This document shows, piece by piece, positions 28,630 through 40,407 of a stretch of DNA of 64,000 nucleotides. This stretch comes from Pseudohongiella acticola (lineage in GTDB: Bacteria > Pseudomonadota > Gammaproteobacteria > Pseudomonadales > Pseudohongiellaceae), in contig NZ_MASR01000001.1 in assembly GCF_001758195.1 (NCBI RefSeq), positions 1,116,001 to 1,180,000 on the forward strand, written 5' to 3'. The notes below the pieces were generated by a model, which was not told the DNA's origin, did no database searches, and saw only the letters and a program-made list of their open reading frames with translations. Within the stretch, counting starts at the first letter, position 1, and every line of letters starts with the position of its first letter. The position numbers and the translations under genes were made by a program.

Positions 28630-31600
28630 ATGGTCAATTCCGCATTCGCCGGCGCCTGCCGCCTGCTTCGCCGCCCTTACACTGGATTTTTCGTCGCATC
28701 GCTGATGCTGGCGGCCTGTTCACCCGATGCAACTTCTCCTGATTCAGCGCTCCCCGAGACAACGTCGTCGGAAAACAGCGCCACCGGTCAGCCTCAGCCT
28801 TCGTCAGGCTATACCCGGGTTTATCCGCCCAATGCCGATGACGCGCTCGACGCCCACATTTATGAACTGGATAACGGGCTTCGTGTGTACCTGACACAGA
28901 ATACCGAAGAACCGCGATTCTATGCCGAAATTGCCGTCCGCGCCGGCAGTAAGCAGGACCCTGAAAACGCGACCGGCCTGGCGCACTACCTGGAGCACCT
29001 GTTGTTCAAAGGCAACCAGTCTTTGGGCACGCTGGATTACAGCGCAGAGCAGCCCTATCTGGAACAAATTGAAGCCCTTTATCAAGAGCACTTCAGTGAA
29101 ACCGATGAGCAGCGCCGGGCCGAGATTTATGCGGAAATAAACCGGGTGTCGCAACTGGCTGCCATGTATGCCGTCCCCAACGAAATCGACACCCTGTATA
29201 ACAGCATGGGCGCCAGCGGCCTCAACGCGCATACCTGGCATGAAGAAACGGTATACAAGGTCAGCCTGCCCGCCAATCGTTTAAAGCAATGGGCCGCGAT
29301 TGAGGCAGACCGTTTTGTCAATCCGGTGTTCAGAATGTTTCACACCGAGCTGGAAGTGGTTTACGAGGAAAAGAACCGGACGCTGGACAACCGCGATCGC
29401 ATCTCCTATTACGCGCTGGCGGACCTGCTTTACAAAAACCACCCTTACGGCCAGCAGTCCACCATCGGTGACGCCGACCACCTGAAAAACCCGTCTCTGG
29501 TCTATATTCAGGAATATTTTGATACCTGGTATGTGCCCAACAATATGGCCATTTTTATCAGTGGCGATATCGACATCGAAGACACCTTGCAGGTGATCAG
29601 TGACGAATTCTCGGACTGGGAACCCGGCCCGCTGCCACCGCAACAGACATGGCAGGAAGACCCGATCAACGCTATTGAGCGCGTTACCGTGACCTATCCC
29701 GGCCAGGAAGAGGTGCAGATGGCATTTCGCACTGTGCCCAACGGGCATCCTGATCAGGAAGCACTGATGCTGCTGGACATGATACTGGACAACCGCACAG
29801 CAGGCCTCATCAACCTGAATCTGAACCAGCGCCAGCGTGTGCTGGCAGCTGGCTCGTCACCCGAATTCCTCAACGACTATGGCTCACAACGATTGTGGGG
29901 CGTACCCCGGGAAGACCAGACGCTGGAAGACGTGGAGGCCCTGCTGCTTGAACAACTGGCCATCATCAAACGTGGTGAATTTGAGGACTGGATTCTGCCC
30001 GCCATTCTTAATGATTTCCGGCGTATGAACATGCGCGCGCTGGAGTCCAACACCGCCCGTGTTGCCGACATGCGCGCAGCATTCCTCAGCGACAGTGACT
30101 GGGAATACCACATCAACCAGATGGCGCGACTGGAAGCGGTCACCCGCGACGACATCGTTGAGGTAGCCAACCGGTACTTCGACGATAACAGCTATGTCGC
30201 CGTGCACCGCGTCGACGGGCCCGCCGTCATCCCGCCAGTGGACAAACCGCAGATTGATCCGGTAGAAATTGACCCGAGCCGCCAGTCACAGTTCGCCGCG
30301 CAGATCCTGGCCATGCCATATGAACAAATCGAACCCACTTTTCTTGAGGCAGGTCGTGACTATCAGCTTAGCGAATACGCGCCCAATGTCCCGCTTTATT
30401 ATGCCCGCAACCCGCTCAACGAATTGTTCACGTTCAGCATCAGCATTGACGTCGGTACTGAAGAGAACGACCTGCTGAGTCTGGCCGGCGCACTCATGGG
30501 CAAGGCGGGAACCGAAAACCTGTCCGCAGAAGAACTGCAAAAGGAGTGGTACCGACTGGGCAGTGATTTTGGACTGAGCAGCAGTGCCAATGAAACCAGC
30601 ATTGCCATTACCGGTCTGGACTCACAGTTTGAAGCAACTCTGGCACTGATGCTGGAACTGATCAGCGCGCCACGCGCTGAAGAAGAAACCTTTGCCGATC
30701 TGAAGGCGACGATTCTGCAGGCCCGCCGCGAGCAAAAGGAAGATCCAGGCGCAATCAGCCGGGCCCTGTATCTGTATAATCGCTACGGTGATGACTCTCC
30801 CATGCTGCAGGCGATGAGCAGCGATGCTATTGCGGCAGTCGATCTCGACGAGCTGACTGCCCTGATCAGCAGCCTGCAACAGTATCAGCATCGCATCAGT
30901 TACACCGGGTCAATGCCACTGGAGCGCGTCACCGCCATTCTGCGTGAGCACCATCAGCCCGCTGACGATCTGCTGGAACCACCGGCCTACGAATACCGTC
31001 GCGCGCGTCAGGTCGCTGACAATGAAATCTTTGTCATTCATCGGGAAACGGCACAGGCGCAAGTACGCCTCGAATTCCCCGACGGCACCTATGAGGAAGA
31101 TCTGGTGGTACCGTCTTCGGTTTACAACAGTTATTTTGGCACCAGCATGTCCAGTGTCGTATTTCAGGAATTGCGCGAGGCTCGCGCCCTCGCCTATTCT
31201 GCCGGCGCCAGCTATTCGCAGGGCAGCCGGCCGGAGGCACAGACCATGGTGTTGGGCGCCATCGGTTCACAGAACGACAAGGCGGTGGAAGCCACGGCCG
31301 CTTTTGTTGACCTGTTCGACAATATGCCGCGCTCGAGCGACCGGTTCGAGGACGCGGTCAATGCTCAGCTTAACCGTTACCGCACCTCCACCATCGGTTT
31401 CCGGCAGATCCCTGGGACCGTCTATGCCTGGCAGCAACTTGGACTCGACGGCGACCCACGTCAGCAGCGCTTTGCCCGTTTGCAGGAGATGACACTGGAA
31501 GAACTGCTGCAGTTTCAGCAGACCCATGTTGCCGGCCGTGCCAAGCTGATATCCATTGTCGGTGACACCAGCCGCATCGACATGGACGCACTGGCGGAAC

Positions 31601-31647
31601 TGGGCACCATTCGTGAACTGACAGTCGCTGACGTTTTTGTGGAGTAG
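28630..31647 (+). CDS. M16-family zinc peptidase, lipoprotein
   Basis: A 1005-residue double-length (pitrilysin/PqqL-like) metalloprotease. The signal SLMLAAC30 is a good lipobox, followed by a Ser/Thr/Pro-rich linker (about 31-66), so it is anchored on the periplasmic side of a membrane. The N-terminal M16 domain has the inverted zinc motif H119-Y-L-E122-H123 and the downstream Glu ligand in TELEVVYEEKNRT. The usual second-half M16 domain starts near residue 570 (YYARNPLNELFTFSISIDVG) and lacks the zinc motif. The ABC ATPase gene follows after four bases, making this the first gene of a packed run. It may process the substrate of the exporter next door. Confidence 0.92.
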   Translation: MVNSAFAGACRLLRRPYTGFFVASLMLAACSPDATSPDSALPETTSSENSATGQPQPSSGYTRVYPPNADDALDAHIYELDNGLRVYLTQNTEEPRFYAEIAVRAGSKQDPENATGLAHYLEHLLFKGNQSLGTLDYSAEQPYLEQIEALYQEHFSETDEQRRAEIYAEINRVSQLAAMYAVPNEIDTLYNSMGASGLNAHTWHEETVYKVSLPANRLKQWAAIEADRFVNPVFRMFHTELEVVYEEKNRTLDNRDRISYYALADLLYKNHPYGQQSTIGDADHLKNPSLVYIQEYFDTWYVPNNMAIFISGDIDIEDTLQVISDEFSDWEPGPLPPQQTWQEDPINAIERVTVTYPGQEEVQMAFRTVPNGHPDQEALMLLDMILDNRTAGLINLNLNQRQRVLAAGSSPEFLNDYGSQRLWGVPREDQTLEDVEALLLEQLAIIKRGEFEDWILPAILNDFRRMNMRALESNTARVADMRAAFLSDSDWEYHINQMARLEAVTRDDIVEVANRYFDDNSYVAVHRVDGPAVIPPVDKPQIDPVEIDPSRQSQFAAQILAMPYEQIEPTFLEAGRDYQLSEYAPNVPLYYARNPLNELFTFSISIDVGTEENDLLSLAGALMGKAGTENLSAEELQKEWYRLGSDFGLSSSANETSIAITGLDSQFEATLALMLELISAPRAEEETFADLKATILQARREQKEDPGAISRALYLYNRYGDDSPMLQAMSSDAIAAVDLDELTALISSLQQYQHRISYTGSMPLERVTAILREHHQPADDLLEPPAYEYRRARQVADNEIFVIHRETAQAQVRLEFPDGTYEEDLVVPSSVYNSYFGTSMSSVVFQELREARALAYSAGASYSQGSRPEAQTMVLGAIGSQNDKAVEATAAFVDLFDNMPRSSDRFEDAVNAQLNRYRTSTIGFRQIPGTVYAWQQLGLDGDPRQQRFARLQEMTLEELLQFQQTHVAGRAKLISIVGDTSRIDMDALAELGTIRELTVADVFVE

Positions 31648-31651
31648 CACC

Positions 31652-32584
31652 ATGACAGGTGCGGGAACAATCGAGCAGGTGTTGTCCATTGCCGCGCTGG
31701 AAAAGCGTTATGGCAACACCCGTGTGCTGGCACAACTGGACCTCACCGTGCAGCGCGGCGCCATACACGGACTGGTCGGACTCAATGGCTCCGGCAAAAC
31801 CACAACCCTGGAGTGTGTGCTGGGCATGCAGACTTTCCAGGCCGGTGAACTGACGGTGTTGGGCCGGGCGCCGTCCAGGCTCTGGCAGGGTCGCGGTGAT
31901 GTTGTCGGCATTTTTGATGCGCCCAGCCTGCACCCCACGCTCACAGTACGTCAGGTACTTGAGCACGCCCGACTGATCTGCGGACAGCCCGTTCGCAGTC
32001 CGGCCGAGGTTGAGACACTGCTGGGCATCAGCCGCTACAGCAACTACAAAATAAAGCAGCTGTCGCTTGGTAACCGGCGACGCGCCTCTATTGCGCAGGC
32101 GCTTATTGGCCAGCCCGAGTTTATTGTGCTTGATGAACCGTTTAACGGTCTGGATGCCGGCGGCGTTGATGATGTGCTGGCGCTGATCCGACAGTTAAAT
32201 CTGCAACATGGCACGACCTTTCTGTTATCCAGTCATCAGCTCGCCTACCTTGAAAATATCTGCACCGATTTTGCCATTCTGCATCAGGGTCATATCGCGT
32301 TGAACGGCAGTGTCGACACCCTGTTCCGGGACCAGCACACACAGCTCAATGTTCGCTGCGATCAGTCAGCAAAAGCCTGCGCCCTGCTCACCGCGATGAG
32401 TGGCATCAGCTCCGTCACCAGCGCCGGCCCGGACGAGGACGCCCTGCTCACACTGACACTGGACAATATCGATGCAGCAACCATCAATAGCGCGCTGGTG
32501 CATGCTGGCATTGCCGTGGCCGGGCTTGAACTACAGAAGCCAAGCCTGGCCCAGCTCTTCCATAACATTGTGGAGACACACTGA
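31652..32584 (+). CDS. ABC transporter ATP-binding protein
   Basis: A 310-residue ATPase of the ABC-2 (NatA/CcmA-like) type that powers the permease encoded next. Walker A is GLNGSGKTT (residues 43-51), the signature is LSLGNRRRA (137-145), Walker B is FIVLDEPFNGLD (157-168), and the H-loop is LLSSHQ. After residue 230 there is an extra C-terminal domain of the type found in ABC-2 exporters. The ATG at 31652 is preferred to the GTG at 31637; GTGGAG lies just upstream. Its stop overlaps the permease start (TGATG). Confidence 0.93.
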   Translation: MTGAGTIEQVLSIAALEKRYGNTRVLAQLDLTVQRGAIHGLVGLNGSGKTTTLECVLGMQTFQAGELTVLGRAPSRLWQGRGDVVGIFDAPSLHPTLTVRQVLEHARLICGQPVRSPAEVETLLGISRYSNYKIKQLSLGNRRRASIAQALIGQPEFIVLDEPFNGLDAGGVDDVLALIRQLNLQHGTTFLLSSHQLAYLENICTDFAILHQGHIALNGSVDTLFRDQHTQLNVRCDQSAKACALLTAMSGISSVTSAGPDEDALLTLTLDNIDAATINSALVHAGIAVAGLELQKPSLAQLFHNIVETH

Positions 32585-33444
32585 TGGAAGGGTTTGTCAC
32601 TGCATTAAAAGCCGAACTGTATGTTGCCCTGCGCAGTAACTCCACGCGTCTGGTGGTATTGCTGCCGGCCATTATCAGCAGCCTGCAACTGCTGCTGGTG
32701 AGTTTTCGCAACGCCGGTGAACAGGCGCGCGATGCCGTATCCAATCAGGGATTCAGTCAGGACCTGGTGGAAGGCGCGGATGCCTGGGGCGCCCTGGTGG
32801 ACGCCATGTCGACCGGGTTGACGCTAATCGGGCTGATACTGGTTGCCTATGCCGCATGGAGTTTTGCTGGCGACAAGGACAGCGGCGCACTGCGGCACTT
32901 GCTGATCCGCCGCGTCAGTCGACGGGCATTGGTTGCTGCCAAACTGGTCAATGCCCATATCGTCGGGATACTGTCAGTGATGCTGATGCTGGGTGTCGCT
33001 GCACTGATCGCCAGTGTACTGTGGGATTTTGGTCCTGTGGTCGAAGATGGTTATGAGCTAATAGGCACGCAGGAAATCCACAATGAGATACGCCTGGGCC
33101 TGATACTGGCGCTGATACCGCTGCCTGCCGCCATCGCACTGGGTACGCTGATTTCGGTGAGCACACAGAATGCCACACAGGCGATCACGGCCGCGCTCGG
33201 TCTGACGCTGGCACTGGATATTTTCAAAGGGCTGATGGGGAATTTTTCCGCCTATCTGTATGTCAACTATCAGGCGTCGTTACTCAATGAGTCTTATTTG
33301 AATGATGTCAGTCGTCTGGTGCGCGGTTTTTCAGACGTCCTGATCGACCCGTCGGCATTGCAGCTCAATCAGTGGGCACCGTGGCCACAAATGCTGGCAT
33401 TGATAATCGCCAGTCTTATTATTGTGCAGTATCGGAAATTGTGA
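32584..33444 (+). CDS. ABC-2 type permease
   Basis: A 286-residue inner-membrane protein with about six hydrophobic segments (about 22-40, 75-95, 122-145, 170-190, 200-220 and 262-283). The cytoplasmic signature DKDSGALRHLLIRRVSRRALVAAKL (residues about 100-124, first 20 shown matter) is the coupling element of ABC-2/NosY-like permeases after the second helix. One permease and one ATPase form a dimeric exporter. Substrate is unknown; the neighbours are a peptidase, a PDZ protein and secreted repeat proteins. Confidence 0.88.
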   Translation: MEGFVTALKAELYVALRSNSTRLVVLLPAIISSLQLLLVSFRNAGEQARDAVSNQGFSQDLVEGADAWGALVDAMSTGLTLIGLILVAYAAWSFAGDKDSGALRHLLIRRVSRRALVAAKLVNAHIVGILSVMLMLGVAALIASVLWDFGPVVEDGYELIGTQEIHNEIRLGLILALIPLPAAIALGTLISVSTQNATQAITAALGLTLALDIFKGLMGNFSAYLYVNYQASLLNESYLNDVSRLVRGFSDVLIDPSALQLNQWAPWPQMLALIIASLIIVQYRKL

Positions 33445-33455
33445 CGGAGTCAGGC

Positions 33456-34439
33456 ATGCACTCCAGGATAGCAACAGGTCATTATATGGCACTAAAACTC
33501 AGCACATTCATCGTTTGCCTCGCCACATTGACTGCCTGCGTCAGCTTTGAACCCAGACAGCGAGTGCCAACGCTGTCACTGTCACCCAATAACGTCATGC
33601 TGGCAGACAACAACGGCGCTGCGCAGACACCCGGCGTCAGCTTCGGTTTGACCGGGGGGATCAACGAGTCCGACTCACTGACCAACATCAGCGTGCTGCC
33701 AGGCATCCGGGTTCGCGCAGTTGCACCTGGCGGCGCTGCCGAACGTGCCGGCATTCGTGCCGGCGATGTCATTCTCAGCATTGATGGCGCCGACAGTAAC
33801 CACCCCGATGTGCTGGATGCGCTGGCATTACAGACCTCAGAGGCACGCCAGTTTGCGTTCGAAGTCAGGCGCAATACCACGGTGTTCATGGCTTCAGTAG
33901 GAGTAACGCCGGTGATAGCGCAACAGGCTGCTCCCATTGAGCTGTACCGGGCCGACCCGGTGCTTCTGCGCGCCGGTTTCAGTACCGAGCTGTTGCAGGA
34001 TTCAGACGGCAAGCGCGTGTCCGGTGCCCGCGTCGTGCGCCGATTTGATGACAGCCCGCTGATGGAGGCTGGCATCCGTGTCGACGACATCATTCTGACG
34101 CTGGATGACACCCGCATTGAGTCTGCCCAGGGCCTGGTCGATTCGCTGACACAACAGTATGCCCCGGGCGAGAGCGTCACGCTTGGCGTAAGCCGGAACA
34201 ACGCAGTGCAATACCAACGTGTCGATCTGTGGCACCCGGGGCGCAAATTGAGCCAGCTTAGCCTGTGGCCGCTGTTCAATTATCAATCCACACTTAGCCC
34301 GGACCAGACCCGGTTCAGCCTTGGCGATCTGATCCTGTTCTCCGTGTTTTCATATCAACGTACCGGCGCTGAGCGCGAAATCAGTATCCTCGGATTGTTC
34401 CGCACGGCCAGTGACTATGGTGAACTGATTGAAGATTGA
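33456..34439 (+). CDS. lipoprotein with two PDZ domains
   Basis: A 327-residue lipoprotein. The signal ends with lipobox L-T-A-C28. Two PDZ domains follow: the first around VRAVAPGGAAERAGIRAGDV (about residues 98-160) and the second around ARVVRRFDDSPLMEAGIRVDD (about 205-265). No protease triad is visible, so it is an adaptor rather than a DegP-type enzyme. It may recognise C-terminal tails of a partner, such as the M16 peptidase or the repeat proteins. The ATG at 33456 has ACGGAGT upstream; another ATG at 33486 would also leave a signal peptide. The stop is one base before the next start. Confidence 0.85.
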   Translation: MHSRIATGHYMALKLSTFIVCLATLTACVSFEPRQRVPTLSLSPNNVMLADNNGAAQTPGVSFGLTGGINESDSLTNISVLPGIRVRAVAPGGAAERAGIRAGDVILSIDGADSNHPDVLDALALQTSEARQFAFEVRRNTTVFMASVGVTPVIAQQAAPIELYRADPVLLRAGFSTELLQDSDGKRVSGARVVRRFDDSPLMEAGIRVDDIILTLDDTRIESAQGLVDSLTQQYAPGESVTLGVSRNNAVQYQRVDLWHPGRKLSQLSLWPLFNYQSTLSPDQTRFSLGDLILFSVFSYQRTGAEREISILGLFRTASDYGELIED

Positions 34440-34440
34440 G

Positions 34441-36030
34441 ATGCGTCGTCGATCGCAAACATTGTCAGCCCTGGCATTAAAGGCCGGTTTTGTTTTGACC
34501 GGTTTCGTTCTGAGCGGACCCAACGTCCTGGCTCAGCAAACTTCGGGACAGATCAATTACATTGCATCCGAAATGCCAGCACCTGAATGGCCCAATCAGG
34601 TAGCGATGGCCGACCTCAATGGCGACGGCCGCGAGGACCTGATACTGCCGCAATGGACACCTGGCGCTGGCCGCCAATTGCTGGTTTTTCTGCAACAAAG
34701 CAATAACCGATTTCTTGCACAGCCATCAAGTTACATTGCCATCGTTCCGGAAATAGTGGCGGTCAGTTTTGCCGACATTCGTCCCGAACCCGGCACCGAG
34801 TTGCTGCTGTTTACCGGTACCAGTGTATTCAGCCTGTCATCTGCCATCGATGGTTACAGTGGCAATATTCGACGCCTGTTCGACTGGCCTCTGATTGCTG
34901 CCATTCCGGATCGAAGGGGCATTGAATTTTTGCCACCGCCTGTTGACGTCACTGGCGATGGCCACATTGACCTGCTACTGCCCGGCCCGGAAGATTATGG
35001 TGTGTTCGAGGGTGGCCCTGATGAACAGTTCAACCTTAAGCATCGCTTTAGCACCGTCAATGCAGATCTGGCCCCGTCTGAATTGCCCAACAGCGGAGGC
35101 CGCTTTTCCACACAGGTACAGTTCAACCGGCAGGACGGGCTGGTTGTGAGGATCAACGCACGCCCCAACACCGCGTTTGAAAACTTTCTCGATGCTGCCA
35201 GCAACGACGACAGCCGCGTGTTACTTGACCGCAGTGTCTGGCAACCACCTGCTGTGTTCAGCGCCATCACCGGCCCCGACAGCAACGACATTGTTTACCT
35301 GAACATCGGCAACGACCTTCGTGGCCAGATTAATGTGTTGTCCGGCAACAACGCTGGCACATTCAATACCCTGCCAGACTGGCAAGGCCCCATCGACATG
35401 GAAGGCGAGATACGGCTACAGGACATAAATGGTGACGGCATCTCCGATGTGATGCGTGTTGTTGAAGAAAACAATGACTGGACCGTCTACTTTTACCTGA
35501 ATCGCGACGGGCGTTATACGTTCGATCAGCCCGATCAGGTCATGCGTTTCAGTGGCTACGACCTGCAGGTCGACGTCAGCGACATCCTGAATGACGGTCA
35601 CCCGGTGCTCAGTGTCAGTTTCTATACCATCCCGGTGGTCAATGCCATCCGCAATACCAGCATTGTTCGCACCCAGTTGTTATATGGCAACAATCGCAAT
35701 CGCGATCAGTACCGTTTCAACAGCCGACCCGACTTCAGTCTGGAAGAACGTTTTTCCGCCAGCAGCATTCGCGGTCTGTCCAGCCCCATCATCCTGAACA
35801 CCGACCTTGACGGCGATGGACACAAGGACGCCCTGGCACTGAACAGCGATGGCACACTCACTGCAACATCAATCAATAATTCCCTGCAATTTGCCAGCGA
35901 GCCTTTCTGGCAATACGTACCGCAGCGCACCATTACCGGTTTCAGCGTACAGGATCTGAACAAGGACGGACGGCCCGACCTGCTGCTGAACCACTCCAAT
36001 ACCATCACAGCCCTGGTGTCATCTCCATGA
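34441..36030 (+). CDS. secreted FG-GAP/VCBS repeat protein A
   Basis: A 529-residue exported protein with a signal peptide ending near VLAQQ (residue 32). It contains at least six calcium-binding DxDxDG-like blade motifs: MADLNGDGREDLIL, VDVTGDGHIDLLLPG, LQDINGDGISDVMRV, VSDILNDGHPVLSV, NTDLDGDGHKDALAL and VQDLNKDGRPDLLLN. These are typical of integrin-like FG-GAP beta-propellers that bind ligands or polymers outside the cell. No enzyme domain is seen. The ATG at 34441 follows the PDZ gene stop directly, and its own stop overlaps the next start (ATGA). Confidence 0.85.
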   Translation: MRRRSQTLSALALKAGFVLTGFVLSGPNVLAQQTSGQINYIASEMPAPEWPNQVAMADLNGDGREDLILPQWTPGAGRQLLVFLQQSNNRFLAQPSSYIAIVPEIVAVSFADIRPEPGTELLLFTGTSVFSLSSAIDGYSGNIRRLFDWPLIAAIPDRRGIEFLPPPVDVTGDGHIDLLLPGPEDYGVFEGGPDEQFNLKHRFSTVNADLAPSELPNSGGRFSTQVQFNRQDGLVVRINARPNTAFENFLDAASNDDSRVLLDRSVWQPPAVFSAITGPDSNDIVYLNIGNDLRGQINVLSGNNAGTFNTLPDWQGPIDMEGEIRLQDINGDGISDVMRVVEENNDWTVYFYLNRDGRYTFDQPDQVMRFSGYDLQVDVSDILNDGHPVLSVSFYTIPVVNAIRNTSIVRTQLLYGNNRNRDQYRFNSRPDFSLEERFSASSIRGLSSPIILNTDLDGDGHKDALALNSDGTLTATSINNSLQFASEPFWQYVPQRTITGFSVQDLNKDGRPDLLLNHSNTITALVSSP

Positions 36031-37844
36031 ACGGGATTACTACACAGCTTTACCGTCCCGATTTAACACTGAGCCGCTGCATTGTATTGCTGGCCCTGTC
36101 TTCTACCCTGCTGGCTTCTCCTGCCCATGCGCAGAACCCGTCGGCGGCGGTTGCAGAATTGCCAGGCTACCGCCCGTTCACGTTCAACCTGCCCGCAGAC
36201 ACCGAGCGCATGCTGACCATCGATGCCGATGGCGATGGCCGTACTGACCTGATGACATTCGCTGGCAACACCGTCAGTCTGTACTTTCAGAATGCTGACG
36301 GTTTTGATTTCTCGACTGCCAGCACAGAATTGACATTGCCGGGTGAAGCCGTGGGCTGGGATGTCAGCGACAACTATGCAACGGAGCCGGGTGATGACAC
36401 CTGGTCGCTGATCGCGCTGGTTGACGGCAACCGTGTACAACGCTGGCCTATCCGGCAGCATCAGTTTGGCGCCGCTGAGACATTGCTCACCGACATCAAC
36501 GGGTTTACCGGGCCGGGTTATTATCGACTCAATTTTTCCCGGGATATCAACGACGATGATCTCGCTGATCTGATCATCCCGGGCGCCGGCGAGCTTGCCT
36601 TGCACATTCGCAATCCAGATGGCAGCTACCAGCCGCCGTTGGCGATCTCGTCTGAAATGCAGCTGCGCACGGTACTGACACCCGATAACCGCCGCGGACT
36701 GGATATTGTCGGCTCGAACACTCGCGACCTGCAGCCGGTTGAGCTGACACGGGACGTGGGGCAGAGCCTGCGTATCCCATTGCTGGCATTACGTGATATC
36801 AATGGTGACGATAAACCTGATCTTGTTTCCGATACCGATGAACGTCTGGATGTATTTCTGGCCAACAACGCCAGCGATGACAATTATTTTTCGTCTACAC
36901 CCAATTTCAGTGTTGATCGTACCGAGATCCGCGAACGCCTGGGTGAGTTCGATGTCGATCAGCTTGATTTTGCCAACCTGACCGGTGTGCTGGCATTAAC
37001 TCATGAAGAAATCCTGCAGGACATGAACGGGGATAATGTAGATGATCTGATTTTGCGCGAGGGCGGCCGCGTTGCCCTGCATCTGGGACGTCCTGATGGC
37101 ATCAATCTGGATGACACCGAGCAGATCCTGCGCTCAAGCGGAAATGTGCTCAGTGTCTTTCTTTACGACGAAAATGGCGACGAACGCCCTGATTTGTGGC
37201 TGTGGCGTGTCGAGCAGGTATCACTGGGCGATGTGTTCCTGTGGCTCGCCATTTCCGGTTCGATCAACATCGAGGCCTTTGTCTACCCTAACGAAGGCAA
37301 TGCCTTTGCCCGACGCCCCGCACGCCGAATCACTGTTGCGCTGCGTTTTCCGTCAGCGGTCAGAATGATCAGTTCAGTACAGGAGGTCCGTGATCGCGCC
37401 AGCGACAGCGAAGTGATCCTGCCAACAACACGCGCCCTGCTGCCCCCGAATCAGGATAGTACTTCGTCACGCGCCGGTCCGGTCATGGAAGACCTGCTGA
37501 TTCTGCTGGAAGACCAGGTCGATGTATTTTTTAGTGCACTGACACCGGAGTCCGAAGCGGACGATGACCGCTTTCTCGCCTCAATCGATTATCAACGCAA
37601 CCGTGACGACTATGAAATTGATATCCGCCGCATCATTGATGAGTTTGATATAGAGGTCAATCGTGACGTCAGAGCGGTGGCACAGCGGCAGCCGGACGTC
37701 AGCCTGCCACTGAACGGTCAGTCCCGTCGTGGGGATATTGTCACGGTTGATCTCAATGCCAACGGCATGGACGATATCATTGTGTTCACCGAGCGTAATG
37801 ATGAAGCCGTGACGGGTATGATATGGCTGTCAGGATTTAACTAA
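36027..37844 (+). CDS. secreted FG-GAP/VCBS repeat protein B
   Basis: A 605-residue exported protein, companion of the gene before it. The signal peptide ends near AHAQN (residue 37). Repeat motifs: IDADGDGRTDLMTF, SRDINDDDLADLIIPG, LRDINGDDKPDLVSD, LQDMNGDNVDDLILR, LYDENGDERPDLWLW and VDLNANGMDDIIVF, again a calcium-loop beta-propeller. The two proteins share architecture but little sequence outside the loops, so they are ancient paralogues or a heterodimeric pair. A ~100-residue segment with many Arg and Asp (about 440-560) separates the last blade. No catalytic residues were recognised. Confidence 0.85.
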   Translation: MNGITTQLYRPDLTLSRCIVLLALSSTLLASPAHAQNPSAAVAELPGYRPFTFNLPADTERMLTIDADGDGRTDLMTFAGNTVSLYFQNADGFDFSTASTELTLPGEAVGWDVSDNYATEPGDDTWSLIALVDGNRVQRWPIRQHQFGAAETLLTDINGFTGPGYYRLNFSRDINDDDLADLIIPGAGELALHIRNPDGSYQPPLAISSEMQLRTVLTPDNRRGLDIVGSNTRDLQPVELTRDVGQSLRIPLLALRDINGDDKPDLVSDTDERLDVFLANNASDDNYFSSTPNFSVDRTEIRERLGEFDVDQLDFANLTGVLALTHEEILQDMNGDNVDDLILREGGRVALHLGRPDGINLDDTEQILRSSGNVLSVFLYDENGDERPDLWLWRVEQVSLGDVFLWLAISGSINIEAFVYPNEGNAFARRPARRITVALRFPSAVRMISSVQEVRDRASDSEVILPTTRALLPPNQDSTSSRAGPVMEDLLILLEDQVDVFFSALTPESEADDDRFLASIDYQRNRDDYEIDIRRIIDEFDIEVNRDVRAVAQRQPDVSLPLNGQSRRGDIVTVDLNANGMDDIIVFTERNDEAVTGMIWLSGFN

Positions 37845-37883
37845 ACAAAAACGCAATCAGAAAAATAATTCAGGTCAAAAATA

Positions 37884-38138
37884 ATGAAAAAAATCGTCTG
37901 GATCAGCTTTATCAGTGCGCTCGTCATTGTCAATCTGCTGGCATTTGTTGCCGACTATCTGGGTGGCGTTTACATCGCTCTGCCCTATCGTCTGGTGGTT
38001 GTGCTCGGCATCACCATGATCAGCTGCGTATTCGGCGGCGCCTGGGTTCTGATGTCCCGTGCCGACGAAGAGGTGCCCAACAACCAGAACAGCCCTCAGA
38101 ACAGCAACCAGAGAACTGACAACAGCAATGGGCAGTAA
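37884..38138 (+). CDS. small two-helix membrane protein
   Basis: An 84-residue protein with two hydrophobic helices (about residues 4-24 and 33-55) and a polar, Asn/Gln/Ser-rich tail (NNQNSPQNSNQRTDNSNGQ). It starts with MKKIVW 39 bases after repeat protein B and closes the run; the convergent SLC13 gene ends 15 bases later. No family is recognised. It could be an accessory subunit of the upstream system or unrelated. Confidence 0.65.
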   Translation: MKKIVWISFISALVIVNLLAFVADYLGGVYIALPYRLVVVLGITMISCVFGGAWVLMSRADEEVPNNQNSPQNSNQRTDNSNGQ

Positions 38139-38152
38139 GCTGAAGCCTTTTC

Positions 38153-40189
38153 TTACAGCGGCCAGACCCAAAGCAGCACTGGCAGACTGACGGCGACCAC
38201 AACAATTTCAACCGGCAGGCCCAGTTTCCAGTAGTCGCCGAATTTGAAACCACTGGGACCCAGAATCAGCGTGTTGTTCTGGTGCCCAATGGGCGTCAGA
38301 AATGCGCAGGAAGCACCGATGGCCACAGCCATCAGGAACGAGTCGGCATTGACACCCAGTTGTCCTGCAATACTGATGGAAAGTGGACACATGACAGCAG
38401 CCGTTGCGGCGTTATTCATGAAGTCCGACAGTGTCATGGTGACGATCAGCACCAGTGCCAGCGCCACCACCGGGTTGCCCTGGGCAACCGAATCCAGCAG
38501 CGCCGTTGCCAGCACATCCGCCGTACCCGTGCTGGCCATGGCCCCAGCGACAGGCAGCAATGCCCCCAGCAACACAATCACTGGCCAGTCAATGGCACTG
38601 TAGACTGCGCGCGGCGGCACGATGCGCAATGCCATATAGGCTAGCACGGCTGCTGAAAATGACACCGCAACCGGCAACAGCCCCAGTGCAGTGATGGCAA
38701 TAGCACTCAGAAAAATGCCAACCGCCAGCACGGCCTGCCCCTTGACCGGCACGCGGATATCCCGGGTCGCCAGCGGCACACACAGGTAGTCCCCGGCAAA
38801 CCCGGATACCGCTTCCGGTACGCCCTGCATCAGCAGAACATCACCGGCTTTGATGGTGGTTGAACGCAGGCGCTTGATAGAACGGCGACCCTGCCGGGAC
38901 ACTGCCAGCATGTTGATGCCATAACGTGTGCGTAACTCTATATCGGTTGCCGAGCGCCCCTGCAGTGGCGACCCCGGCATCACCACAAGCTCCTGAATCA
39001 CCAGTTCATCTGATTTAGCCGGTGCCTTGCTGTCAGCTTCGCTGTCGTCGCTATCTGCGCTCTTGCCGTCCCCGCCAGAGGCGGAGCCCGCGCTCTTGGC
39101 AGCGCCTTTGCTCACAGTGGCTGCTTTCTTGCTGGAGCCTTTACCGCCAGCCGCTTCTGTCTTGACAGCGTCGTCCGAACCTCGCTTGGCTGAACGTGCC
39201 TTTTTGCTGTCAGTCTTTTTGCCTTCACTCTTTTTGGAGTCCTTCTGCTCAGCACCCTCTGCGTCTGCTTCTTCCTGGTCCTGGTCTTTGTCGCTTTCCA
39301 GCACCTCCTCTTCCAGTTTCAGGCCAACACTGGATAGCGCCGCGCCCAGCGACTCCGGTTCTGCTTCGATGACCAGAATATCGTCTTCCCGCAACACCCG
39401 GCGTGAATACGGAGCAATGACCCGTACTTCACCCCGCACCAGGCCGACAATCTGCGCATCTGCTTTTTCCAGATGCACTTCCACCTCGCGCAGCGTTTTG
39501 CCAATGGCCTTGCTTTCGGCTTTGATGCGGACCTCGGTCAGATAGGTGCCAGTATCAAAGCTGGCGGTCTCGGCATTGCGCCGTGCCGGCACCAGCCGCC
39601 AGCCCACCAGACCCACAAAAAGAATACCAACAACCGTGATGGAAAGACCCACCGGGGTAAAATCGAACATGCCATAGTGACCCATGCCCGCTTCCGCGCG
39701 AAAACCCGAGACAATCAGGTTGGGTGGTGTCCCGATCAACGTCGTGGTCCCGCCCAGTATCGAACCGAACGCCAGTGGCATTAATACTCGACCGGGCGGC
39801 AGGTCCTGTTTGACCGCCACCTGCAAGGCGACCGGCATCAATAGCGCCAGAGCACCTACATTGTTCATAAATCCGGAGAGAATGGCCGCGAGCGCGGTCA
39901 GGGAAAAAATACTGAGTGTCTGTCCGGCGCTGGCAGGCAACACTTTCTGTGCCAGTGCATCAACAGCACCAGTCACCTGCAGGCCGTAACTGAGCACCAG
40001 TACGCAGGCAACCGTGACCACCGCTGGATGGCCAAATCCGGCAAACGCGTCAGCCGAAGGCACCAGGCCGGTGAGGATACAGGCCAGCAACGCACCACCG
40101 GCAATCATGTCATGGCGCCAGCGCCCCCACATGAACATACCCATGCTGCAGACCAGAATGGCAATTATTATCAGCTGGTCTACCGTCAT
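38153..40189 (-). CDS. SLC13-type anion permease with RCK_C domains and a charged linker
   Basis: A 678-residue inner-membrane carrier of the DASS/ArsB-NhaD superfamily (possible substrates sulfate or dicarboxylates). Two blocks of helices contain the family's re-entrant signatures: LSGFMNNVGALALLMPVAL (about residue 105) with GTTTLIGTPPNLIVSG, and DFMNNAATAAVMCPLSISI with ASCAFLTPIGHQNNTLILGP near the end. Two cytosolic TrkA-C (RCK_C) domains lie between (about 218-290 and 396-465). They are joined by about 100 residues of Lys/Glu/Asp/Ser/Ala low complexity (genomic 39008-39304), unusual for this family. The ATG at 40189 has GGAG seven bases upstream; an upstream start at 40222 lacks support. 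Confidence 0.9.
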   Translation of the reverse strand: MTVDQLIIIAILVCSMGMFMWGRWRHDMIAGGALLACILTGLVPSADAFAGFGHPAVVTVACVLVLSYGLQVTGAVDALAQKVLPASAGQTLSIFSLTALAAILSGFMNNVGALALLMPVALQVAVKQDLPPGRVLMPLAFGSILGGTTTLIGTPPNLIVSGFRAEAGMGHYGMFDFTPVGLSITVVGILFVGLVGWRLVPARRNAETASFDTGTYLTEVRIKAESKAIGKTLREVEVHLEKADAQIVGLVRGEVRVIAPYSRRVLREDDILVIEAEPESLGAALSSVGLKLEEEVLESDKDQDQEEADAEGAEQKDSKKSEGKKTDSKKARSAKRGSDDAVKTEAAGGKGSSKKAATVSKGAAKSAGSASGGDGKSADSDDSEADSKAPAKSDELVIQELVVMPGSPLQGRSATDIELRTRYGINMLAVSRQGRRSIKRLRSTTIKAGDVLLMQGVPEAVSGFAGDYLCVPLATRDIRVPVKGQAVLAVGIFLSAIAITALGLLPVAVSFSAAVLAYMALRIVPPRAVYSAIDWPVIVLLGALLPVAGAMASTGTADVLATALLDSVAQGNPVVALALVLIVTMTLSDFMNNAATAAVMCPLSISIAGQLGVNADSFLMAVAIGASCAFLTPIGHQNNTLILGPSGFKFGDYWKLGLPVEIVVVAVSLPVLLWVWPL

Positions 40190-40407
40190 ACGCGCACTCC
40201 ATCCTTTGCCTACAGCCTGCATTGCATGCCCTGAACAACACCCTGGGGTCGCAGGCCTTTGCCGTATTAGACACTAACACCTGAACAGGAGCAATGCCCT
40301 GTCGTGGCAACCGTTCATCGCGTCCTGCTTGTTGTCTGTCCACGCTTTCTGGTACGCTCCAGCGACCCTGCAGCCTCTGCAGATCCGGCAAAACAAGGAG
40401 CTTGATC

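Follow-up and report, generated by a model that had tools for sequence, protein, structure and literature searches.

We analysed a gene block in a 64,000-nucleotide stretch of the 3.6-Mb genome of Pseudohongiella acticola (G000:C1:1116001-1180000, called the window here). Judged by gene order and sequence comparison, the unit in this block is five genes, from an ATP-binding cassette (ABC) ATPase to the second of two FG-GAP repeat proteins (31652-37844), and not seven; the genes of an M16 peptidase and of a small membrane protein at its two ends are separable attachments. Comparison of loci shows that the genes of the ATPase, an ABC-2 permease, a PDZ lipoprotein and the two FG-GAP proteins have been inherited together as a compact unit. 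Tentatively, we read this core as an ABC machine like NosFY that may work on partner proteins in the periplasm.

Organization of the gene block

All seven genes are on the + strand, and the reading frames and Pfam confirmed the identities that a first-pass annotation of the window had given to them as one packed run:

28630-31647, + strand: M16 metallopeptidase lipoprotein of 1005 amino acids (Pfam, motif count), attached gene
31652-32584, + strand: ABC ATPase similar to NosF, ABCA and LanF (PF00005, 86 bits), core gene 1
32584-33444, + strand: ABC-2 permease (PF12679, 61 bits, cut-off 27.2) with about six transmembrane segments by hydropathy, core gene 2
33456-34439 (alternative start 33486), + strand: lipoprotein whose two PDZ domains (PDZ_2, 74 bits, two stretches) are followed by a C-terminal part of no family, core gene 3
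34441-36030, + strand: FG-GAP repeat protein 1 (FG-GAP_3, 85 bits, 4 stretches), core gene 4
36027-37844, + strand: FG-GAP repeat protein 2 (FG-GAP_3, 56 bits), core gene 5
37884-38138, + strand: small protein of 84 amino acids with two hydrophobic segments (by eye), attached gene

Pfam scores of six proteins exceed the curated cut-offs, including Peptidase_M16_C with 117 bits in the M16 protein, while the small protein reaches no cut-off in Pfam or NCBIfam. The M16 gene ends 4 bases before the ATPase start (ATG 31652), the ATPase and permease genes overlap by 1 base (TGATG), and the permease gene is followed by the PDZ gene after 41 bases (ATG 33486) or 11 bases (ATG 33456). One base separates the PDZ gene from FG-GAP-1 (ATG 34441), FG-GAP-1 and FG-GAP-2 overlap by 4 bases (ATGA), and 39 bases lie before the small protein. 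The first-pass annotation gave the spacing as at most 39 bases, which holds with the PDZ start at 33456. The lipoboxes (LAAC in the M16 protein, LTAC in the PDZ protein) and the M16 motifs HYLEH and ELEVVYEE were also found. Scans for promoters and terminators found 7 sites each, against 5.0 and 8.2 in shuffled sequences, and were uninformative. The Rfam scan of the window found a tRNA only.

A core of five genes

The M16 peptidase is an attachment because it is present without the core in genome G012, absent from two distant loci (L114 and L115) and set apart from the core in G460. Taking all seven genes as one set, as the first-pass annotation did, is therefore not upheld; the small protein is separable as well.

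Genome G012 belongs to the same genus and is 100% complete. It keeps the flanking genes of the window, the M16 protein (70% identity) and the small protein (38%), and the five core genes had no match in its 19-kb stretch (tblastn, 1e-3). Nor did the whole G012 genome give a match to the permease or FG-GAP-2 profile. Only 77 bases separate M16 from the small protein in this genome. An inverted repeat (L100:8720-8815) was seen in this gap, at the place where the core is missing.

Searches at the level of order and class were made on samples of genomes. Of the 390 genomes in the order-wide permease search, 14 matched: 12 belong to the family of the window and two (G751 and G820) to another family. 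These two loci, L114 and L115, hold the same five genes in the same order with 25-46% identity (tblastn), and lack both M16 and the small protein. Their flanks look unrelated to those of the window and to one another (by eye). Overlaps of 4 bases occur at three of the four core junctions in L114. L115 has two such overlaps and one of 10 bases (longest frame), and the permease/PDZ gaps are 18 and 25 bases in the two loci. Sixty other genomes of the G751/G820 family, two of them of the same genus, gave no permease match; G820 itself lies outside that sample. An order kept in another family at this identity is more than chance. The first-pass annotation had said that its grouping would fail if the order stopped at close strains, and for the five core genes the order goes well beyond them.

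In G460 the M16 and ATPase genes are separated by a stretch of about 3.4 kb that holds six open frames, two on the opposite strand; the five core genes and then the small protein follow. We also read the neighbourhoods of 28 loci, out of 110 genomes holding FG-GAP-2, with start codons chosen by script. Overlaps of 1 or 4 bases were found at ATPase/permease in 24/27, at permease/PDZ in 7/28, at PDZ/FG-GAP-1 in 14/28 and at FG-GAP-1/FG-GAP-2 in 26/28. At the attached genes they were found in 0/26 (M16/ATPase) and 2/22 (FG-GAP-2/small protein). In the loci measured, no gap within the core exceeds 98 bases, apart from one locus with a cut ATPase frame; this is L055 (G028), where the frame has only 176 amino acids by frameshift or assembly error.

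Several weaker candidates were not accepted as core copies. The only FG-GAP-2 profile match in the class besides the window's own genome (1/369) was a weak one of 52 bits in G080; this gene adjoins a presumed resistance-nodulation-division pump, and G080 has no permease match. Twelve other class genomes out of 369 matched the permease profile (built with L114/L115) at 22.5-32.3 bits with partial coverage, and were taken as generic ABC-2 permeases. Permease and FG-GAP-2 had no match among plasmids at E 1e-3.

Conservation within Pseudohongiellaceae

A search with the single FG-GAP-2 protein found it in 29 of 76 genomes including the window's own, every one in Pseudohongiellaceae, and in none of 29 sampled genomes from other families of the order. 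With profiles, FG-GAP-2 was present in 110 of the 137 family genomes (own genome included; 5 of 8 genera) and the permease in 109; M16 was present in 112 (E 1e-100). Genera g2, g3 and g8 and genome G012 gave no FG-GAP-2 profile match.

Permease and FG-GAP-2 occur together in 108 genomes. They are on the same contig and strand, 2486-3304 bases apart, in 97 of these and on different contigs in 11; the permease match is missing in two genomes that have FG-GAP-2, and one genome has the permease without FG-GAP-2. M16 and permease also occur together in 108 genomes, with the same contig and strand in 100 and different contigs in 8; their distance is at most 1370 bases in 99 of the 100 and 4312 in G460. 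The two genes are absent jointly: the permease profile that detects the 109 had no match in 19 genomes (18 family genomes without FG-GAP-2, plus G080). There the PDZ profile found only frames of 431-499 amino acids, which is the size of HtrA proteases and which we presume them to be.

Of the 28 loci read, 27 contain all five core genes in the same order, and the exception (L045) starts at a contig end. M16 is in 26 loci, the other two starting at contig ends, and the small protein is in 22. The three nearest flanking genes of the window were found in fewer loci (downstream CitMHS transporter in at least 6, upstream reductase in at least 11, upstream SDF transporter in at least 12; some stretches end before these flanks could lie), which shows that these genomes are not simply collinear. 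Pairwise identities in 15 loci correlate at 0.80-0.95 among core proteins and at 0.69-0.85 between core proteins and M16. These correlations show, as far as protein identities go, joint descent in which core and M16 are not sharply separated, and the pattern suggests that the core was inherited vertically within the family.

ABC ATPase and permease

Searched against solved chains, the ATPase profile matched ABCA4 (E 1.7e-47) and NosF (7o0y, E 9.1e-45), and NosF is the best bacterial solved chain. Residues of the Walker A, signature, Walker B and H-loop motifs are conserved, and G51, G53, K54, T56, D166, E167 and H200 are among the columns that do not vary when the ATPase is aligned with L114, L115 and four NosF sequences. 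Among the plasmid matches listed for the ATPase, 10 of 40 are annotated beside NosD. The best NCBIfam model is the lantibiotic-protection ATPase TIGR03740 with 128 bits, far below its cut-off of 309.75.

The permeases of the window, L114, L115 and NosY hit ABC2_membrane families only, with no MacB/FtsX-type domain found, and PF12679 (ABC2_membrane_2) is the best Pfam family also for the three NosY proteins tested. Half of the invariant permease columns (22/44, from 13 rows of both families) fall in residues 147-168 and 233-264, that is 54 of 286 residues. Hydropathy and charge would place these two conserved segments in the periplasm.

PDZ lipoprotein and FG-GAP proteins

The lipobox cysteine of the PDZ protein is present in 18/18 and 13/13 aligned rows and is followed by V, I, A or L, never by Asp in the rows read. 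Lipoproteins without Asp after this cysteine are sorted to the outer membrane, and by this rule the PDZ lipoprotein would be as well. Its C-terminal part is conserved without belonging to a family, and differs in L114/L115. A GEL-type tail ends the PDZ protein in most family rows and is missing in L114/L115.

FG-GAP_3 is over its cut-off in the window, L114 and L115. FG-GAP-1 carries a hydrophobic segment at its N-terminus that by eye looks like a Sec signal, and FG-GAP-2 is its distant paralogue (hhalign 99.2%, E 6.3e-20) with a conserved hydrophobic stretch in mid-protein (about residues 398-413). Calcium-loop positions, chosen by motif in the window's own sequence, are more conserved over 13 rows than the rest of the proteins (0.90 vs 0.58 and 0.89 vs 0.56). 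In another family of the class a lone FG-GAP gene (L101:10173-11723) resembles the middle of FG-GAP-2, and a wider FG-GAP subfamily may carry this stretch.

Attached and neighbouring genes

The M16 gene has the zinc motif of M16 metallopeptidases, HxxEH with a downstream Glu, and so is predicted to encode one: HxxEH is in 17 of 18 rows (the 18th, L037, is cut at a contig end) and ELExVYEE in 18/18. The M16 C-terminus (31633-31647) reads F-V followed by E, D, Q or K in 18/18 rows and is a possible ligand for a PDZ domain.

A TAXI-type binding protein is encoded downstream on the same strand in 12/28 loci (L052:14297-17353, L054:14179-17342 and others; assigned by Pfam, NMT1_3, for L052 only); in several of them it follows the small protein directly. 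A DctM-type permease was seen in 8/28. The small protein may belong to such a TAXI/DctM transporter system.

An efflux-type outer-membrane lipoprotein gene lies divergently upstream in 9/28 loci. In three loci (L124:8257-14202, L125:8365-14361, L126:10123-16176) it continues into an HlyD-type adaptor and then a MacB-like ATPase and permease, identified by eye. Being self-contained in the three loci followed, this operon was not counted as a member of the block. Upstream of the block in L126 (132-9880, genus g5) are three tandem similar genes resembling TonB-dependent receptors, a reading that has Pfam for the L046 relative only. In the window itself, a convergent CitMHS/TrkA_C transporter gene (38153-40222) carries a long Lys-, Ser- and acid-rich insert before its second TrkA_C stretch.

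Comparison with known systems and possible function

The first-pass annotation could not match the block to a system with a name, and we agree; a search of open-licence literature found the module described nowhere. The closest known system is NosDFY (of nosDFYL), which serves the maturation of nitrous oxide reductase and on which structural work was reportedly done by Muller et al. in 2022. The ATPase is closest to NosF among bacterial solved chains, the permease shares the Pfam family of NosY and can be weakly aligned with it, and the ATPase and permease genes overlap (4 bases in four nos regions, 1 base here). In the nos regions a partner protein and NosL are encoded beside this pair, whereas the partners here are a PDZ lipoprotein and two FG-GAP proteins and the gene order differs. 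No NosD family was found in ten window proteins or ten L114/L115 core proteins scanned. NosL and NosZ were absent from the ten window proteins scanned, a search that did not extend to the rest of the genome. PMC7660919 describes NosDFY as a membrane-spanning ABC transporter needed for maturation of the CuZ site.

Type VII ABC systems (MacAB, LolCDE, FtsEX, YbbAP-TesA) are similar in the proposed principle only, that the ATP cycle drives periplasmic work; they can do such work without transport, according to PMC12646458. The permease here is of ABC-2 type (PF12679), not of FtsX/MacB type.

On this comparison we favour, with somewhat less than even confidence, a core in which an ABC pair resembling NosFY uses ATP to do work on partners in the periplasm. 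The inner-membrane complex would be NosFY-like, with the ATPase and the permease in two copies each, and the ATP cycle would move the two conserved permease segments. Their movement would act on the PDZ lipoprotein in the outer membrane and on the two predicted propellers, for example to extract or fold a component of the envelope or to pass it on. In the lineage that has the M16 lipoprotein attached, this protein would play an accessory part by clearing or trimming peptides. Simple pumping-out of a soluble peptide is probably not the role. We infer every step from the conserved packed unit to mechanical work. The narrower version, that ATP is spent on mechanically working two calcium propellers and an outer-membrane PDZ lipoprotein and not on transport, is more doubtful. 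It would be a second, independent use of the NosFY motor, reaching from inner to outer membrane with its own partners.

Several results weigh against such a NosFY-like motor. The permease aligns with four NosY rows only weakly (hhalign, E 1.2e-4, probability 54.9%), its profile has no match among solved chains at E 0.01, and the resemblance of the ATPase to TIGR03740 fits a role in expelling a substrate as well. Permease/PDZ is the loosest junction of the core, the outer-membrane place of the PDZ lipoprotein is inferred from the sorting rule only, and structures predicted from five-row alignments were unusable (mean pLDDT, predicted local distance difference test, of 45.6 for FG-GAP-2 and 44.7 for the PDZ lipoprotein).

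Another possibility, about as doubtful as the narrower version above and akin to the alternative named in the first-pass annotation, is maintenance of the outer envelope, in which the machine moves lipids or lipoproteins or aids assembly of outer-membrane proteins and the propellers are calcium-dependent scaffolds. It differs from periplasmic work by a NosFY-like pair in naming the substrate. The PDZ lipoprotein without Asp after its cysteine, the predicted secreted propellers and the vertical inheritance are all consistent with it, but FG-GAP-2 is missing in 27 of the 137 family genomes (some incomplete) and in three whole genera, so the function is not essential.

An immunity or detoxification pump like LanFEG/BcrAB seems unlikely to us. 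Here the ABC pair would clear the inner membrane of a membrane-active peptide or lipid, which the propellers and the PDZ lipoprotein would then take up, and M16 would destroy peptides. The TIGR03740 model, the M16 gene attached in the family and the divergent efflux-type gene speak for it. But the score misses the cut-off by far, the window, L114 and L115 have one permease gene instead of two, and extra periplasmic proteins are present. No bacteriocin family was found among the proteins scanned, M16 is missing beside both copies outside the family, and of the seven proteins only the ATPase was matched in PADLOC, by several ATPase models.

The first-pass annotation proposed that a peptide or protein ligand is exported, matured and bound by the propellers, which is quite improbable. 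Peptidase, transporter and secreted proteins do adjoin in most family holders, but the peptidase is separable and absent from both copies outside the family, and the ABC pair is similar to NosFY as much as to exporters. Core gaps of at most 98 bases, one odd locus apart, are too short for a precursor gene of the usual size (the flanks were not systematically scanned for short peptide genes). M16 peptidases stand alongside ABC exporters in Alb-type operons also, but no radical-SAM family is among the scanned proteins here and M16 is outside the core.

Meaning for the family

In one bacterial family, the majority of the genomes sampled encode a coherent and so far unnamed ABC system, probably a machine of the envelope. 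Its five genes are delimited by evolution, through a genome without the core, a genome with an insertion beside it and two distant copies that lack the attached genes. Should the NosFY motor indeed serve other partners here, this class of ABC proteins would work in the periplasm as a general motor, beyond its special role at a copper site.

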